Assembly (NCBI GenBank): GCA_012729505.1
Contig: JAAYDA010000029.1
Span: forward strand, 1-64,000
Direction of reading: 5' to 3'
Source: Syntrophomonadaceae bacterium
GTDB lineage: Bacteria; Bacillota; Syntrophomonadia; Syntrophomonadales; DTU052
DNA length: 64,000 nt
Shown here: positions 16,395 to 64,000 of the stretch, piece after piece
Position numbering within the stretch: the first letter of the stretch is position 1
Layout: every line of letters begins with the position of its first letter
Position numbers and translations under genes: made by a program
Notes under the pieces: model-generated
Database searches by the model: none
Told to the model about the DNA's origin: nothing
Seen by the model: only the letters and a program-made list of their open reading frames with translations

Positions 16395-16940
16395 TCAGCC
16401 ATTCTTTATCAGCGGCGACATCACTTTGAATTCGGGTGTTCCTGCCTGGTAAAGCACTTCAAAAACTAATGTTTCAGTATTGGTAATAACTGCACCCTTT
16501 TCTTTCATCAGATCCAATCCATTTTCATAGTTTAGTATCCGTCGCGAACATACCGCATCTTTGGGTACCTGAACCGCGAAATCATTCGCAAGCAAATCCC
16601 GCACGGTTTGAAAAACACATACATGAGTTTCGCTGCCAGCCACGATAATCTGATTCCTGCCAAGCTTTCGCAGGTTTTCGATTAAATCCTGACCCGCCGA
16701 AAAAGTAATCTTCTCCAGCAAAAGGTGATCCTTTAACTTATCTTTTATTTCGGCAAGAGTCGGTCCCAGCCCTTTTGGATACTGCTCTGTGACAATAACG
16801 GGAATATCGAATTGTCGCGCCAGCTCCATAAGAATCAACGTGTTATTCACTACCGTCTCACGATCCGGCATTACTCTCATCAGTTTTTCCTGCAGGTCGA
16901 TTATCACCAGAACTGCCGAGTCACCATTTTTTATGTTCAT
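16395..16940 (-). CDS. Isochorismatase-family hydrolase
   Basis: VLVIIDLQEKLM, VTEQYPKGLG, IIVAGSETHVCVFQTVRDL. Confidence 0.9.
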   Translation of the reverse strand: MNIKNGDSAVLVIIDLQEKLMRVMPDRETVVNNTLILMELARQFDIPVIVTEQYPKGLGPTLAEIKDKLKDHLLLEKITFSAGQDLIENLRKLGRNQIIVAGSETHVCVFQTVRDLLANDFAVQVPKDAVCSRRILNYENGLDLMKEKGAVITNTETLVFEVLYQAGTPEFKVMSPLIKNG

Positions 16941-20228: not shown

Positions 20229-21089
20229 CTACCACTCCGGAGGAAGCTTTTTGAGTTGGGCCAGGTTAAAAACCGGTCCGTCAAGACAGATGTATTCGCT
20301 ACCAATATTGCAGCGGCCACACTTGCCTATCCCGCATTTCATCCTCATCTCCAGGGTAGTGATGACCTGTTCATCTGTATAGCCCATCTTCTCCAGAGCC
20401 TGAAGCACAAATTTAATCATAATGGGAGGACCACAGGTAACCGCAATCCTTCCCTGAGGGGACGGATTGATCTCTTCCAGGTAGGCCGGACAAAAGCCCA
20501 CATTACCCGCCCACTGATCTTCAGCATTGTCAATAGTCGTATATACTTCACAATTGGGTACCTGGGGCCACTCTTCAAACAATTCTCTCTTAAAACAAAG
20601 ATCATCATAACTCCGGGCACCGTAAATGATTTGAATCTTGCCGTAATCCTCACGATGTTTGAAGCAGTATTTAATAAAAGAACGCAGCGGCGCAAGACCA
20701 ATACCTCCGCCAATAAACAGCATATCCTTACCTTTGCATTCCTCTACCGGGAAGCCGTTGCCGTATGGGCCTCTAACCCCCAGGGTCTGCCCAACCTCGA
20801 TTTCGTGGAGAGCATCAGTTAACAGCCCCACCCTTTTAATGGCGAACTGCAAATGATCATCATCCTGCCAGGAAACCGAAAACATACCTTCTCCAATGGC
20901 CACATGTGAAACCATGGCCAGCTGGCCCGGCATGACCTTGAAGGGAATGCCATTTTCGCCGACCACATAGAAAGTCTTTACATCAGAGGTTTCATCCACA
21001 ATTTTTTGAACTTTAACCATGGTTGGAACCAGAGGATTAGTCTGACCATGATCTTTACAACTACATTCGTGGTTATGATCATGCATCAA
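20229..21089 (-). CDS. FAD/NAD(P)-binding oxidoreductase subunit (FlxA / anaerobic sulfite reductase B-like)
   Basis: GVRGPYGNGFP, LFIGGGIGLAPLRSFIKYC, AVTCGPPIMIKFVLQAL, C-terminal [2Fe-2S] motif CGIGKCGRCNIGSEYICLDGPVF. Confidence 0.88.
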   Translation of the reverse strand: MMHDHNHECSCKDHGQTNPLVPTMVKVQKIVDETSDVKTFYVVGENGIPFKVMPGQLAMVSHVAIGEGMFSVSWQDDDHLQFAIKRVGLLTDALHEIEVGQTLGVRGPYGNGFPVEECKGKDMLFIGGGIGLAPLRSFIKYCFKHREDYGKIQIIYGARSYDDLCFKRELFEEWPQVPNCEVYTTIDNAEDQWAGNVGFCPAYLEEINPSPQGRIAVTCGPPIMIKFVLQALEKMGYTDEQVITTLEMRMKCGIGKCGRCNIGSEYICLDGPVFNLAQLKKLPPEW

Positions 21090-22095
21090 GCTTCACCTCC
21101 TTAACTTTCTCAATAACTTCAATAATGTTGACCCCATTGGGGCATAGGATTACACATCGCCCACATCCTGTACACAGGTTGGCGCCATAACGTTCATTAA
21201 AAAATTGCAGCTTATGCAAAAAACGGTTGCGGTATCTCTCTTTTTTATAGTCACGGGGATTATGACCGCCGGCCATCATAGTATATTCCCGATACATGCA
21301 GGAATCCCAACAGCGAAAACGATTGCCCGCTTCTCCCCGATTGCTGACCTGGATGTCGAAACAGTAGCAGCTGGGACATACATAGGTACAGATTCCGCAG
21401 TTCATACAGCGAGAGGACAGATCATCCCATACCGGATGTTCAAACATTTCCGCCAGTTTCTCACTCACCCCGGTCATATCCACCTTTCGGCTCTGGGGTT
21501 CTGCCTGGGGCAGAGTTACATCACGCTCTTCCATCAAAGCCGCTATTTTAGCCGTAAGCTCTTCTCCGCGTGAGGTCTTGGCTTCCCAGGCATAATCCTG
21601 GTTTTCCAGCTCATGGATCAAGACGTCGGCCGCCGGATTGATCCGGTCCGCTCCCATTCCTTCACAGAAACAAGCCGGACCCGGCTTATAACAAGCCTGA
21701 GCAATAATGGTAAGGTCCTGGCGGCGTGCCTTATAATACTCATCTTCAAAGCCCATGGTCAAAAAGGCCATATCCAAATTTTCCAGCGCCTTCAGGTCAC
21801 AGGCTTTAATCCCGAATATTATCCGGGCCCCCTCCCGGACCTGAACTTCAGTGATTTCCACATCCTGCTTGCTGGTTTTGAACTTGTACATAGGTTCCGT
21901 CTGGGGAATTACTACGTTTTTAGGAGACAAGTAGGTGTTGAGCAGATCCAGGGCCAGCTCATCTGCGGGGTTATCGGCCCATTGGAAATATCCGCTGATG
22001 TCATCACGAAGCATGGGCACATAAACTTCAGCATCGTTAGCCATAATGTTCAGCGCCTCTCTCAATTTATCCAACGGTAATACTTTCATAGCCAC
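21079..22095 (-). CDS. 4Fe-4S dicluster protein (FlxB / anaerobic sulfite reductase A-like)
   Basis: CMNCGICTYVCPSCYC and CTGCGRCVILCPNGV ferredoxin motifs; IIFGIKACDLKAL. Confidence 0.85.
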   Translation of the reverse strand: MAMKVLPLDKLREALNIMANDAEVYVPMLRDDISGYFQWADNPADELALDLLNTYLSPKNVVIPQTEPMYKFKTSKQDVEITEVQVREGARIIFGIKACDLKALENLDMAFLTMGFEDEYYKARRQDLTIIAQACYKPGPACFCEGMGADRINPAADVLIHELENQDYAWEAKTSRGEELTAKIAALMEERDVTLPQAEPQSRKVDMTGVSEKLAEMFEHPVWDDLSSRCMNCGICTYVCPSCYCFDIQVSNRGEAGNRFRCWDSCMYREYTMMAGGHNPRDYKKERYRNRFLHKLQFFNERYGANLCTGCGRCVILCPNGVNIIEVIEKVKEVKLDA

Positions 22096-22101
22096 ACCCC
22101 C

Positions 22102-23004
22102 CTACATAAACTCGTCCGGGTCATCAACACGATAACGGCTGAGGGGAGGAATGGCATCATCCTCAAGGCTCAACCCGGCTTGATAAGGCCCGAAGAGTTC
22201 ATCTACGTCTTTAACCAGCTTGCGATTCAGAAGCATAAGAGGAATGCCCACCGGACACACTCTTTCACACTCGCCACACTCAACACAGCGACCGGCCACA
22301 TGAGTGGCTCGAATAATGTGGTATAACATATTGTTCACAGTATCGGTGGAACGCCCCACCCATTGGGGCTTAGATTCATCAAAAATACAGGTGCGGCAGT
22401 TGCAGGCCACACAAGCATTGCGGCAGGCATAACACCTGATACATTTGCTAAGCTCCTGGGCGAAGAAATTGTACCGTTCATCCGGAGTCATTTTCTCGAT
22501 TTCTTCCACAGAGGCAAATCGCTCATTACTTGGTTCAACCTTTTGCAAATCACCTATTATTTCATCATAAATAAACGGATTAGGATTTTGGCACACCTGG
22601 CACTTGGCCGCTATTTCGGCTGCCGGAGCCTTGCCAAAACCTGATGCGGCCCGGGCATATTCGTTTGGATCCTTCATTCCCGGACAATTAATACCGATAA
22701 TGTGCAGCCGTTCCCGGGGTATTACCCGATCTTGAATCATTCTGATAATGCCGCGGACATCACACCCTTTGGCAAATATAGCAACCTTGTCGGTTCCATC
22801 ACGATAGTCGGTCAAAAGAGCCGCTATTTCATGAATGCAGTATTCGTCTATTATTAGCCGATCAACCTCGGCCAGTTCTGTGATGGCGGTAGGAGCGCTG
22901 GCGTAAGGCTCATCACCTTTCTCCCACCCCAAGACTACGGACACCGTCCCGTCCGCAAGGAGACGTTTAGCTATTTCTCTGGCTTTATTAGTGAAATCAT
23001 TCAT
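22102..23004 (-). CDS. 4Fe-4S protein (FlxC-like)
   Basis: CIRCYACRNACVACNC and CVECGECERVCPVGIPL; FAKGCDVRGIIRMIQDR (FrhB-like N-terminal region). Confidence 0.82.
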   Translation of the reverse strand: MNDFTNKAREIAKRLLADGTVSVVLGWEKGDEPYASAPTAITELAEVDRLIIDEYCIHEIAALLTDYRDGTDKVAIFAKGCDVRGIIRMIQDRVIPRERLHIIGINCPGMKDPNEYARAASGFGKAPAAEIAAKCQVCQNPNPFIYDEIIGDLQKVEPSNERFASVEEIEKMTPDERYNFFAQELSKCIRCYACRNACVACNCRTCIFDESKPQWVGRSTDTVNNMLYHIIRATHVAGRCVECGECERVCPVGIPLMLLNRKLVKDVDELFGPYQAGLSLEDDAIPPLSRYRVDDPDEFM

Positions 23005-23434
23005 GCTCTTCCCTCAGCTTTCGGTTGGGACCAACCTTTTTTACTTCGTCTACCACGTGGGTCATCACGTCAGCAAATTTCTGACCCTCGGAGCCGGATA
23101 TCCAGGCCATCTGGTAGCGTTCCGGTTCAATTCCCAAATACTGCAGGAAACTTTTCATCATAGTATGCCTCCGCCGGGAATAATAATTGCCACTACCATA
23201 GTGGCATTCTCCCGGGTGTCAACCGGAGACAAGGACACCGTCTGCACCCGACTTAAAGGCCCGCAATACAAAAAGCGGATCTATTCGTCCGGAACAGGGC
23301 ACTCTAATAATCCTTACGTTGGGAGGGTATTGCAGCCGGTTGCTTCCAGCCAAATCTGCCCCCGCATAAGAACACCAGTTGCAAGCAAAGGCTACTATCT
23401 TAGGGGTCCAAGCTTTAGTTGCCTCTACAGACAT
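22997..23434 (-). CDS. MvhD/FlxD-type hydrogenase delta subunit, selenoprotein (TGA 23219-23221 = Sec)
   Basis: Reading through the TGA gives ...GADGVLVSG[U][73 protein letters not shown], a complete 145-aa MvhD; ORF track calls only the first 71 aa. Confidence 0.92.
23174..23215 (-). promoter_or_regulatory. Candidate bacterial SECIS element in mvhD/flxD
   Basis: Minus strand 3 nt after TGA: CCGGGA ... TGCCACTA-TGG-TAGTGGCA ... TCCCGG (8-bp apical stem plus 6-bp outer stem). Confidence 0.8.
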
Positions 23435-25404
23435 AGTGCATCCACCTCCGCTACTATTTGATCGCCGGTGTAGCCATCCAGGTCAAGTGCACAGGGTCGG
23501 CATGCGGCCACACAGGCGCCACAGCCCTGACACAGACCTTTATTGATGTGAGCCACCTGTCGTTCAACTACCTGACCGTGAGCTCTCTCTTTTTTAGGTA
23601 TCATACTTATGGCCTGATAAGGGCACACCGGTACACAGAATTCACATCCGGTACATTTGCTCTGGTCCACGTTTGCCACCATTGGCTCAGTGGCCAGTTC
23701 GGATTTATTCAGCAAGGCCGCTACTTTCACTGCAGCACCGCTGGCCTGGGCCACCGTGTCCGGAATATCCCGGGGGCCCTGGCACGCACCGGCCAGAAAT
23801 ACTCCGGCGGTAAATGTTTCCATGGGCTGAAGTTTGGGATGGGCTTCCTGATAAAAGCCGTCCTTATCAACTGAAAACCCTACGATCTTGGCTATTTCCG
23901 CCGAACCTGCCGACGGAACCATGGCCGTAGCCAGGACAACCAGATCAACTTCAACCTCGATTGGTTTGCCCAGAAGAGTATCCTCACTCTTGATTACTAA
24001 ACGGTCACCACGAGGATAGATCTTGCTGACCCGTCCTCTTATATACTGGGCGCCCTGGTCCACTGACCGCAGATAAAACTCCTCATATCCTTTGCCGGCA
24101 GTACGAACATCCATATAGAATACATATGCCTGGCCATCGGGAATCTTCTCCATAACCTGACTGGCATGCTTGGCTGTGTACATACAACAGGTACGGGAGC
24201 AATAGCTCTTGCCTTTGGTATCATCCCGAGATCCTACACATTTAATAAATGCTACATCCTGCGGAATTTTACCGTCAGACGGCCGTTTGATCTTCCCTCC
24301 GGTAGGACCGGAAGCATTGACCATACGCTCAAAATGCAGACCGGAAATAACGTCAGGATACCTTCCGTATCCGTATTCTCCATAAGCCTCTTCCCACGGG
24401 AACAGATCATATCCGGTAGCCATAACTATGGCGCCCACTTCCTCCTGAAACACTCGGTCCTGATCATCATATCGGATCGCTTTAACCGGACAGATTTTTT
24501 CACAAACCCCGCATTTGCCGTTTATCAGCTTCCGGCAATTAGCAGCATCAATAACAGGCTTGTTGGGAACCGCCTGGGCAAAAGGCTTGTATATAGCCGG
24601 ACGAATTCCTAAACCCAAATCAAATTCGCTTTTTACTTTTTCAGGACACTTGGTTTCACAAAGCCCGCAACCGGTACAATCATCATGATCCACATATTTG
24701 GCTTTTTCACGAATAGTGACCGTAAAGTTACCAATATATCCGGTTACTCTTTCTACCTCGGAATAGCTGTATAGTGTAATATTAGGATGCTGTGCCACAG
24801 CAACCATCTTGGGGGTGCTTATTCAAGCCGAGCAATCCATGGTGGGAAAGGTCTTATCCAACTGAGCCATCTTCCCTCCGATGGTTGTGCTCCTTTCTAC
24901 CAAGATTACCTGATGGCCGGTTTCGGCAATATCAATGGCGGCTTGCATTCCTGCAATTCCCCCGCCTATCACCAAAGCCTTCTTAGTAACCGGTATGGTT
25001 GTAACCTGAAGTGGTTTGTTGCGCTCCACTTTAGCAACCGCCATACGAATCAAATCGATGGCTTTTTGAGTCGCCTCATCCTTGTTCGAGTGAACCCATG
25101 ATACCTGTTCGCGAATATTAACCATTTCGAACATGTACGGGTTTAATCCCGCGCCGGACATGGCTTTGCGGAAAGTGTTCTCATGCATACGCGGCGAACA
25201 CGAGGCCACAATAACCCGGTTCAGATTATGCTCTTCGGCAGCTTTCTTGATCTGCTCCTGTCCGGGATCAGAACACATATATTTATAAGAAGTTGAGAAA
25301 ACAACCGAAGGCATCACACTTGCTACCTCGGCTACCCGGTCAACATCAACCGTGGAAGCAATGTTGGTTCCACAACCACAGACAAATACCCCTATCCTTT
25401 TCAC
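23425..25404 (-). CDS. HdrA-like heterodisulfide reductase subunit A, selenoprotein (TGA 24823-24825 = Sec)
   Basis: Two ORF-track pieces (24823-25404 and 23425-24807) are in one frame: ...[15 protein letters not shown][U][24 protein letters not shown]...; FAD-binding [10 protein letters not shown] and several 4Fe-4S motifs. Confidence 0.93.
24785..24805 (-). promoter_or_regulatory. Candidate bacterial SECIS element in hdrA
   Basis: Minus strand downstream of TGA: GGT-TGCTGT-GGC-ACAGCA-TCC (6-bp apical stem, GGC loop, flanking GG/CC pairs). Confidence 0.7.
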
Positions 25405-25406
25405 CT

Positions 25407-26576
25407 TTAATTCCCCTCCTCTCCTCCGGAAGTCTCTTTAGCCTTTTTGGCCAACAAAGCACCCGCCACCTTTTGAGCTTTGTCTTTGTCCTGTTCGAAG
25501 ATTTCCTGGAGTTTCGCGGCCCTGGCCGGCTCCGCTGTCAGAAGAGCCTCCAGCCGGGCTGCCTGATCAGCGTCATTGTAAATCTGTTGTGCCAAAGACG
25601 GCCCATCATCTTCAACCTTTTCCGGCTTGGCCACAGGTTTAGCCGCAGCAGCTTTTTTACCCTTTTTCCCTGCCTGCGCAGCTTCCGCAGCTTCTTCCAT
25701 GGCCCTGGCTTTAGCAGGAAGCTGATCAAATATAGAATTAGCCTCCACAAAGTGGTGGTTGGTTCCTACTGAAGAGGGCTCCGCTCCACAGGCTATAGAT
25801 ACCAGTTCGGTCACATAATATACCGGCAGTTTAAACTCAACCCGGTATTTCTTTTCAATGGCTTTTTGTCGCATATCCAGGTTCAGATGACAAATGGGAC
25901 AGGCCGTTACTATACTGTCCGCACCCATCTCTTTGGCATTCATTAAAATCCGATAAGTCATTTCCAGACATATATCAGGCTGAGTTACTCCTAATCCTGC
26001 CCCACAACACTCCGTTTTGAAATCCCACTTCACCGGTGAAGCACCGACAGCCTCCATAATCCGATCCATGCTTTGAGGGTCCTCCGGATCGTCAAAGCCG
26101 GTTATTCCCACCGGTCTAACTAAGAGACAGCCATAATAACAGGCCGGAGTCATACCCTTGAGGGGTTTGGTCACTTTAGCGGCCAGATTGTCCAACCCAT
26201 ACCGCTCCGCCAATAGCTCCAGGGTTGACACCGTCTGATGAGTAGCGGCATAAGTCATGCCAATAGCCTCTTCAACCTGACTCCTAGCCTTAGCATCAGA
26301 CCTCACTTCATTTTCAGCCGCCCGAAACCGATTATAACAGGCCGCACAGGGAGCAAAAACATCCATTCCTTCCTTTTCTGCGATGGCCAAGCTACGGGCG
26401 GGCAAAGCGACGGACAGCAGATGATTGGTTTGATGAGCCGAGCTGGCGCCACAGCAACTCCAATCTGGAATTTCCCAGAACTCAATACCAAGAAGATCAG
26501 CCATTCTATGAGTTGACATCCCATACTCTTTGGCGGTGCCATCCAACGAACATCCAGGGTAATAGGCTATTTTCAT
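25407..26576 (-). CDS. HdrB-like heterodisulfide reductase subunit B with C-terminal extension
   Basis: CCG motifs WSCCGASSAHQ and TECCGAGLG, YPGCSLDGTAKEYG; ~97-aa Ala/Lys/Glu-rich C-terminal tail. Confidence 0.9.
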   Translation of the reverse strand: MKIAYYPGCSLDGTAKEYGMSTHRMADLLGIEFWEIPDWSCCGASSAHQTNHLLSVALPARSLAIAEKEGMDVFAPCAACYNRFRAAENEVRSDAKARSQVEEAIGMTYAATHQTVSTLELLAERYGLDNLAAKVTKPLKGMTPACYYGCLLVRPVGITGFDDPEDPQSMDRIMEAVGASPVKWDFKTECCGAGLGVTQPDICLEMTYRILMNAKEMGADSIVTACPICHLNLDMRQKAIEKKYRVEFKLPVYYVTELVSIACGAEPSSVGTNHHFVEANSIFDQLPAKARAMEEAAEAAQAGKKGKKAAAAKPVAKPEKVEDDGPSLAQQIYNDADQAARLEALLTAEPARAAKLQEIFEQDKDKAQKVAGALLAKKAKETSGGEEGN

Positions 26577-27139
26577 TGGTGATCCCCCTCCATTTCCTTG
26601 ACTTTATCAAATATACGGCTGACTTCCTTTCTGCCTTTAATAGGTTCAGGTAAAATATTGAGCTTTCCTTTAGAAAGCATTAAAGGTCCCTGCTCCGCAT
26701 TCTTCAGCAGTTTCATATTCCGGGTATTATATTCCACCACCATCGAGGCTTCGTGAACTCGTCCGAAACGTTTAACCCCATTCAGGAAAGATTGGTTGAA
26801 TGCCGATACATCTCTAAATACTCTTCCTCTGCCCAGAGCTTCCCTTCGCAGGGCATCCATAATAGAAGCAATATCCACCCCTCTTGGACACCGAGCCGTG
26901 CAGGTGTCACAGGAAGCACAAACCCATATACTCTTAGCCTGCAAGGCCTCCTCAACTAAGCCCAGCTGCAGCAATCGGATTATTTGACGCGGGGGATAAT
27001 CCATAGCGAAATTTACCGGACAGCCGGCCGTACATTTACCACACTGGTAACATAGGCTGGTCCTGGTTCCGCTGGCAGCTTCAATGGCCTTTACAAGGTC
27101 TTGAGCTTCTCGGCTGGCAGACAAGACAACTTTACCCAT
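26573..27139 (-). CDS. HdrC-like heterodisulfide reductase subunit C
   Basis: CYQCGKCTAGCPV and CASCDTCTARCPRGVDI; start placed at MGKVVLSASREA (CAT 27137-27139). Confidence 0.9.
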   Translation of the reverse strand: MGKVVLSASREAQDLVKAIEAASGTRTSLCYQCGKCTAGCPVNFAMDYPPRQIIRLLQLGLVEEALQAKSIWVCASCDTCTARCPRGVDIASIMDALRREALGRGRVFRDVSAFNQSFLNGVKRFGRVHEASMVVEYNTRNMKLLKNAEQGPLMLSKGKLNILPEPIKGRKEVSRIFDKVKEMEGDHQ

Positions 27140-27421
27140 TAATTCCTCTCCTTTCCCAAACTCATATGCCAGTCCCAGGTTGATAAAAATTAATACTATC
27201 CACCCTCGGGACATTGCAATCCGGGTCATTTAATTGCCGACACATTAATTTCGGTTATTTCTCACTTAATTATATCATTTTCACGAATTTTGTCGCATCA
27301 TTGCGCTAATTATATGATAATTGTCCAGAATGTTTTTAAGTATGAGTTAACCTTGCATTTCTTATAGCTAATAGAGTAACATAAATTTAAATATGTATCA
27401 TTAATAAATAATTTCATATTG

Positions 27422-53159: not shown

Positions 53160-53882
53160 TCATCTTCCTGCAGCATTAAGGGCTTCTCCCAGGGTAATCC
53201 GTCCTTCATACAGGGCTTTGCCTATAATCGCCCCCTCAATCCCCGGGATTTGCCGCAGCTTCACAATATCTTTCACACTGGTAACTCCACCTGATCCTAT
53301 CACCGATAAGCCGCTTCCTTTAGCCAAAGCCTCAGTTGCAGAAAGATTGGGCCCTTGTAATTCTCCATCCCTGCTAATATCGGTATACACCAGACGGGTA
53401 ATCCCCAATGATTTCATTTCTAAAGCCAAATCCAAAGCCGGCACTTCTGTAACATCCACCCACCCTTTTACCGCCACCATTCCATTTCGGGCATCAATGC
53501 CAATGACGATTTTATCAGGGCCAAACTCCTTCAGCAGATTCTCTATAAAAAATCGGTCATCTAAAGCCTTTGTTCCAATAATAATACGGCTGACTCCCAG
53601 GTTCAGGAAACTGGCGGCTATCTTCATATCTCGAATTCCACCACCCAGCTGAACAGGAATATTCAACTGGGAAACCATATCCTTGATAATGCTTTGATTA
53701 CGTGGAATACCGGAGAAAGCCCCGTCCAGATCCACCACATGCACCCATTGGGCTCCCTGGCGCTCCCACTGACGGGCTATTTCCGCCGGGTCTTGGCTAT
53801 ATACGGTTTCCTGATCCTTCCTGCCCTGAATCAGGCGGACACATCGACCTTCTTTAATATCTACAGCCGGGAAAATCAGCAA
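53160..53882 (-). CDS. hisA: ProFAR isomerase
   Basis: IFPAVDIKEGRCVRLIQG, IPVQLGGGIRD. Confidence 0.96.
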   Translation of the reverse strand: MLIFPAVDIKEGRCVRLIQGRKDQETVYSQDPAEIARQWERQGAQWVHVVDLDGAFSGIPRNQSIIKDMVSQLNIPVQLGGGIRDMKIAASFLNLGVSRIIIGTKALDDRFFIENLLKEFGPDKIVIGIDARNGMVAVKGWVDVTEVPALDLALEMKSLGITRLVYTDISRDGELQGPNLSATEALAKGSGLSVIGSGGVTSVKDIVKLRQIPGIEGAIIGKALYEGRITLGEALNAAGR

Positions 53883-63031: not shown

Positions 63032-64000
63032 CTACTCCAACACAATCCCCCGGTCCCCCACAGCCATCTCACCGATAACCCAGGGATTCTCCCCTGCTGC
63101 CCGCAATTCCGCCAGGGCCGCCTCCGCCTCTTCCGGGCTAACTACTACTATAAAACCAATCCCCATATTGAAAGTTCGATACATCTCCCCGGTCTCAACC
63201 TGACCCAGCTCCGCCAGCAGCTTAAAAATGGCGGGAGATGTCCAACTGGAGGTCTTGATTCTTCCTTCCAATCCAGATGGAAGCACCCGACTGAGATTAC
63301 CGGGAATACCTCCTCCGGTTATGTGAGCCATTGCCTTGATTTCCACACAGTTCATAAGATGCATAATGCTATTCACATAAATCCGGGTAGGGGTAAGCAG
63401 CTCTGACCCCACACTCCTCCCCAAAGCCTCCGGCACCTGATCCGGGCCATACCCGGCTCGTTCAAACACTATTTTCCGCGCCAGAGAATACCCATTCGAA
63501 TGAAGGCCAGACGAAGCCAAACCGATGATCATATCGCCGGCTTGAGTGTTTTTACCATTAATTATCTCATCCTGATTAGCCACTCCTACGGCAAACCCGG
63601 CCAGATCGTATTCGTCATTCCCATAAAAGTCAGGCATCTCCGCCGTTTCACCACCAATGAGAGCACAGCCGGCCTGACGGCATCCCTCCGCCACACCTTT
63701 GACAATATCAGCTACCCGTTCAGGCACCAGCCGGCCTACTGCCAGGTAATCCAGGAAAAACAGCGGCTCAGCTCCATAAACCAGAATATCATTGACACAC
63801 ATAGCCACCAGATCAATGCCGATAGTATCGTGAATACCCGTTATCTGAGCCACCTTCAGCTTAGTCCCGACTCCATCCGTCCCGGATAACAGCACCGGTT
63901 GGGGATACCGCTCCAGATCCAGCTTGAACAGTCCTGCAAAACCGCCTATTTCCGATACCACCTCCGGCCTTCTGGTCCCCTTGATCAAAGAGGAAATCAG
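63032..64000 (-). CDS. purM: Phosphoribosylformylglycinamidine cyclo-ligase (5' end beyond window)
   Basis: SGTDGVGTKLKVA, IGIDLVAMCVNDILVYGAEPLFFLDYLA, GLASSGLHSNGYSLAR; frame stays open to the window edge. Confidence 0.96.
   Translation of the reverse strand: MISSLIKGTRRPEVVSEIGGFAGLFKLDLERYPQPVLLSGTDGVGTKLKVAQITGIHDTIGIDLVAMCVNDILVYGAEPLFFLDYLAVGRLVPERVADIVKGVAEGCRQAGCALIGGETAEMPDFYGNDEYDLAGFAVGVANQDEIINGKNTQAGDMIIGLASSGLHSNGYSLARKIVFERAGYGPDQVPEALGRSVGSELLTPTRIYVNSIMHLMNCVEIKAMAHITGGGIPGNLSRVLPSGLEGRIKTSSWTSPAIFKLLAELGQVETGEMYRTFNMGIGFIVVVSPEEAEAALAELRAAGENPWVIGEMAVGDRGIVLE

Follow-up and report, generated by a model that had tools for sequence, protein, structure and literature searches.

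A predicted selenocysteine codon in flxD of a Syntrophomonadaceae hdrCBA-flxDCBA operon

The flxD gene of this Syntrophomonadaceae bacterium, located in the 64,000-nucleotide stretch of DNA analyzed here (the window), very probably encodes a selenoprotein in which the UGA at codon 72 is read as selenocysteine (Sec), a reading to which we assign a probability of about 0.95. It draws on features visible directly in the DNA, namely the alignment of the UGA with Cys codons, coding constraint past the UGA, a SECIS hairpin, the Sec machinery, and the operon in which the gene lies (Table 1).

Table 1. Positions of flxD, its neighbors, and the associated Sec signals within the window
Feature	Position	Strand	Basis
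flxD/mvhD, predicted FlpD-family selenoprotein, 145 aa, Sec at residue 72	22997..23434	-	translation, profile and structure-chain matches
Predicted Sec codon TGA of flxD, at the first Cys of GCHPGxCHY	23219..23221	-	
Predicted SECIS hairpin of flxD, UGCCACUA-UGG-UAGUGGCA	23188..23206	-	folding, comparison with relatives
hdrA, predicted selenoprotein, 659 aa, Sec at residue 194 (motif DCSAU)	23425..25404	-	
Predicted Sec codon TGA of hdrA	24823..24825	-	
SECIS-like hairpin of hdrA, loop GGC	24785..24805	-	
hdrC-like [4Fe-4S] protein, start codon approximate	26573..27229	-	profile matches
hdrB-like CCG-domain protein	25407..26576	-	profile matches
flxC-like iron-sulfur protein	22102..23004	-	name from operon position
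flxB-like [4Fe-4S] protein (AsrA/HydB-like)	21079..22095	-	profile matches, gene order
flxA-like FAD/NAD(P)H-binding protein (AsrB/HydG-like)	20229..21089	-	profile matches, gene order

The flxD gene and its read-through product

In the automatic table-11 reading, flxD is a 71-aa ORF (23434–23219, minus strand) that closes at the TGA after GADGVLVSG. When the TGA at 23221–23219 is translated as U, the frame extends to 145 aa and runs to a terminal TGA at 22999–22997. The 3′ end of the gene overlaps the next gene, which begins with an ATG at 23004, by 8 nt, and 10 nt at its 5′ end are shared with hdrA. The Pfam FlpD profile (PF02662) covers the read-through product over its whole length with 188.8 bits (positions 1–123; curated cut-off of 22.3 bits), and the solved structures of Hdr complexes contain MvhD chains that match it as well, among them 5odc_D (E = 1.3e-51) and 7bkb_F. 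The counterpart of Sec72 in 5odc_D is the Cys of GGCH. A frameshift in flxD was tested and rejected. The flxD described here is an ordinary orthologue; it belongs to a Syntrophothermus-like bacterium, and its closest named relative is 88% identical.

A preliminary description of this DNA had proposed that reading through the TGA restores the complete C-terminal half of an MvhD protein, ending at 22997 and overlapping the next gene, and that the TGA occupies the first Cys of the CHPGxCHY motif. The translation and the PF02662 match agree with the first proposal, relatives carry either Cys or TGA at the position named in the second, and the suggested alignment of the 145-aa product gives a full-length FlpD/MvhD match. 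Its label of "VhuD type" is imprecise, as the score against NF045873 (VhuD proper) is 141.6 bits, below the cut-off of 215; the gene encodes the FlxD subunit within an hdrCBA-flxDCBA operon rather than the VhuD of a hydrogenase.

The window was also scanned for other in-frame TGA joins, the longest of which were translated. The join at 53160–53162 separates two genes, hisA and hisF, and that at 16395–16397 lies between an isochorismatase-like protein and a response regulator; translation of the join at 63404+ gave nothing recognizable.

Codon 72 in relatives and the Sec machinery

Across 98 distinct loci, codon 72 is only ever TGA (46) or TGC/TGT (52). In the FlxD alignment of 97 distinct relatives, residue 72 is Cys in 51 and TGA in 46, and Cys18, Cys21, Cys47, and Cys77 are invariant, which gives the FlpD pattern of five invariant cysteines, one of them being Sec here, and the sole other in-frame stop among these relatives lies near a C-terminus. 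Substitutions on the 3′ side of the TGA are concentrated on the third base of the codon (in the comparison with locus L024, for instance, 6/2/21 at positions 1/2/3), and the persistence of this bias past the TGA indicates that the downstream half is still translated. In four loci (L068, L070, L084, and L037), FlxD with a TGA is found on a short contig and the adjacent HdrA codon falls outside the scoring.

These observations bear on two alternative readings of the TGA. In the first, it is a real stop in a split gene or pseudogene, such that the 71-aa fragment alone is made, which is where the automatic reading ends; the downstream half, however, is undamaged and in phase, coding constraint acts on it in the relatives compared, a SECIS is present, and 48 of the 50 genes of the order have TGA at this otherwise-Cys codon, making a real stop very improbable. 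In the second, a sequencing or assembly error has changed TGC or TGT to TGA, as might happen in a draft genome of 80 contigs, but dozens of independently assembled genomes share this TGA, among them that of a Syntrophomonas wolfei isolate (L067) and that of Carboxydocella thermautotrophica (L072), which is complete. Since exactly one in-frame TGA is present in 48 of the 50 full-length FlpD genes of the order, the chance of such an error is negligible.

The genome also contains the apparatus needed to decode the codon as Sec. A single contig (C49) carries selA, selB, the gene for tRNA-Sec, and selD together, with scores of 564.5 bits for SelA, 339.5 bits for the main stretch of SelB (362.6 bits with the neighboring stretch), 72.3 bits for tRNA-Sec, and 378.5 bits for SelD, which has a Sec of its own in the motif AAGUAAK; the genome thus holds selA, selB, selC, and selD, the set required for a bacterial selenoprotein. 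The selD gene (L131, G000:C49:14073-14990; also L020) lies in a neighborhood ordered selA-selB...selC...selD. The preliminary description had raised two objections to its own proposal, a genome devoid of Sec machinery and an assembly error at the TGA; both were pursued, and tRNA-Sec, SelA, SelB, and SelD were found, while the same TGA recurs in many independent genomes.

A third alternative, that the TGA is read as some other amino acid through code reassignment or unspecific suppression, is exceedingly improbable. No support for reassignment of TGA was found; TGA acts as an ordinary stop nearby, both between hisA and hisF and at the end of flxD, relatives have Cys at the site, never Trp or Gly, and the Sec machinery is complete.

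SECIS hairpins and codon choice

The predicted flxD hairpin begins 12 nt past the TGA and consists of an 8-bp stem and a 3-nt UGG loop, with a UGA-to-loop distance of 20 nt and a folding energy of -10.9 kcal/mol. It agrees with all four criteria that PMC13188914 quotes for a bacterial SECIS, as does the hdrA hairpin (26 nt from UGA to loop, -9.7 kcal/mol). Relative to shuffled sequences, the energies are unexceptional (z = -1.45 for flxD and -0.43 for hdrA). The flxD stem varies among relatives by G-U variants with no compensatory double changes, as both arms are also coding.

Codon choice in TGA genes relative to Cys genes is a better test of the SECIS than either folding energy or covariation. 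Tyr79 is encoded by TAT in 46 of 46 TGA genes, whereas Cys genes use TAT in 14 cases and TAC in 32 (p = 8e-14, relatedness ignored), and residue 81 is AGT in 45 of 46 TGA genes versus 2 of 52 Cys genes. At residue 80, TGA genes encode Gly, Val, or Ala solely as GGT, GTT, or GCT, leaving the loop pattern UAUGNUA unchanged. Because the constraints at residues 79–81 are specific to TGA genes, and the loop bases are kept while the amino acids vary, the RNA itself is under selection here in addition to the protein.

Two relatives depart from this pattern. L035 (genome G014, 1692) has a Cys codon, TGT, at FlxD position 72 and no longer has the hairpin, while its neighboring HdrA retains Sec; this FlxD is a natural Sec-to-Cys exchange. 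In L038 (genome G058, 1678-1729), the FlxD TGA is kept, the SECIS stem is short of two pairs, and the adjacent HdrA has Cys. A genome without Sec machinery, suspected from the weak stem, was rejected for L038, as tRNA-Sec and SelB are present in it, as they are in the genome of L035; its flxD is possibly a Sec gene en route to loss or one with a tolerated weak SECIS.

The Flx-Hdr operon, its paired Sec sites, and known systems

The seven genes lie contiguously in the order hdrC-hdrB-hdrA-flxD-flxC-flxB-flxA, the Flx names being assigned by position and domain content, and the identical order is found in relatives including S. wolfei subsp. methylbutyratica (L067), Carboxydocella (L072), and Thermincola (L086). 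In domain content, the seven proteins agree with the FlxABCD-HdrABC complex (PMC6687939), and the operon encodes a putative NADH-linked Flx-Hdr complex. A search of the genome for a second full-length FlpD, which might have served as a Cys backup, returned none. A 486-aa frame that matches FlpD weakly and in part (37.8 bits; L021, G000:C65:14882-15097) lies near a Cys-containing HdrA-like match, an arrangement shared by several relatives, and is possibly a second, diverged Hdr-type protein.

Among loci with a scorable adjacent HdrA codon, both sites are TGA in 41, both are Cys in 11, and 2 are mixed. The association between Sec in FlxD and Sec in HdrA is thus strong, but in part phylogenetic. 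The two mixed loci, L035 (FlxD Cys, HdrA Sec) and L038 (FlxD Sec, HdrA Cys), show by their exceptions that the Sec of each subunit can be exchanged for Cys separately. In six loci from other phyla (L105, L109, L113, L118, L119, and L120), the FlpD genes have Cys, a nearby HdrA-like gene has TGA, and the copies differ in gene order.

In the proposed mechanism, SelA would make Sec-tRNA-Sec with selenophosphate supplied by SelD, and SelB, bound to the hairpin 12 nt downstream, would deliver the tRNA to the codon; that Sec is inserted in vivo is expected from knowledge of the family. By the same knowledge, FlxD would serve as the connecting [2Fe-2S] subunit in a cytosolic Flx-Hdr complex, and by analogy with solved Hdr complexes, electrons would probably pass from an NAD(P)H-linked FlxABC module through FlxD to the HdrA flavin, where bifurcation would serve ferredoxin and a disulfide at HdrB. 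In homologous complexes, the [2Fe-2S] cluster of the MvhD-type subunit feeds the HdrA flavin (PMC12350162). With five invariant Cys/Sec residues and four ligands per cluster, Sec72 may either coordinate the cluster or act as a fifth, redox-active residue. A more specific role, in which Sec72 is not a plain ligand but forms with Sec194 of HdrA a functional redox relay from the [2Fe-2S] cluster to the bifurcating flavin, is quite doubtful; in the Elp-Hdr structure, a cluster-to-flavin step over 25 Å is described, with its mechanism given as unknown (PMC12350162). It is also unlikely that the inserted Sec serves mainly as a selenium switch, whereby low selenium would halt translation at codon 72 and at hdrA codon 194 and turn Flx-Hdr off. 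Such a role would suit a genome in which no second full-length FlpD was found and has a counterpart in Methanococcus maripaludis, where the Hdr and Vhu genes that contain Sec are selenium-responsive and Cys isoforms take their place (PMC11097638), but L035 and L038 have each swapped one Sec for Cys and retained the operon, which means that these two do not require Sec as a switch.

For annotation, the standard reading would cut short two subunits of an enzyme central to energy metabolism, an error that the Sec reading corrects. Read as Sec, the two codons would make the Flx-Hdr complex of this syntroph selenium-dependent, with no spare full-length FlpD found. No new class of system is opened; what is added is order-wide evidence for conservation of the pair and for a SECIS constraint on codon choice. 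These data touch on the question of why selenium is so frequent in these two electron-transfer subunits, for which natural Cys variants offer ready comparisons (L035 for FlxD and L038 for HdrA).

The pair of Sec-FlxD and Sec-HdrA is already known, having been listed for close relatives as early as 2006. The preliminary description had called two neighboring Sec subunits striking; the adjacent flxD and hdrA do each carry a TGA, but the surprise does not stand, as the pairing is long established (PMC1794560, PMC2702500, PMC11227280, PMC13188914). Of these reports, PMC11227280 places hdrA and frhD selenoprotein genes side by side in Asgard archaea, and PMC13188914 describes the Sec-MvhD/Sec-HdrA pairing elsewhere.

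In terms of subunit composition, the same seven-protein set constitutes FlxABCD-HdrABC, for which NADH-dependent bifurcation has been proposed (Ramos et al. 2015, as cited in PMC6687939), coupling NADH oxidation with the reduction of ferredoxin and a disulfide (PMC6687939). The proposed acceptor in Desulfovibrio vulgaris is DsrC, whereas DsrC was looked for in the present genome and is absent, as it is from Syntrophomonas BUT1 (PMC6687939). Methanococcus likewise encodes two Sec-capable subunits together, VhuD and HdrA, in hdrAU-vhuDGAUB (PMC2933860, PMC11097638), but there the SECIS is archaeal and lies in the 3′ untranslated region rather than within the coding region, the partner is a [NiFe]-hydrogenase, and Cys isoforms serve at low selenium, whereas no Cys copy was found here. 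In Desulfobacterium autotrophicum HRM2, hdrA1, hdrA2, and mvhD1, 2, 3, and 5 encode selenoproteins, with hdrA genes followed by mvhD and Sec in both (PMC2702500); this organism is a sulfate reducer with MvhAG and fused HdrL as partners in place of the FlxABC module. The nearest parallel in kind is found within the same bacterial group. Zhang et al. (2006; PMC1794560) reported Sec-FrhD (equivalent to MvhD) and Sec-HdrA in S. wolfei, along with FrhD and HdrA selenoproteins in Carboxydothermus, Desulfotomaculum reducens, Moorella, Syntrophobacter, and others, and Hdr and two neighboring gene products have been detected in the S. wolfei proteome (PMC4324140). The S. wolfei subspecies examined here (L067) carries each TGA at the corresponding codon, likewise arranges its genes as hdrCBA-flxDCBA, and differs from the present system in sequence divergence only (70% identity in FlxD).
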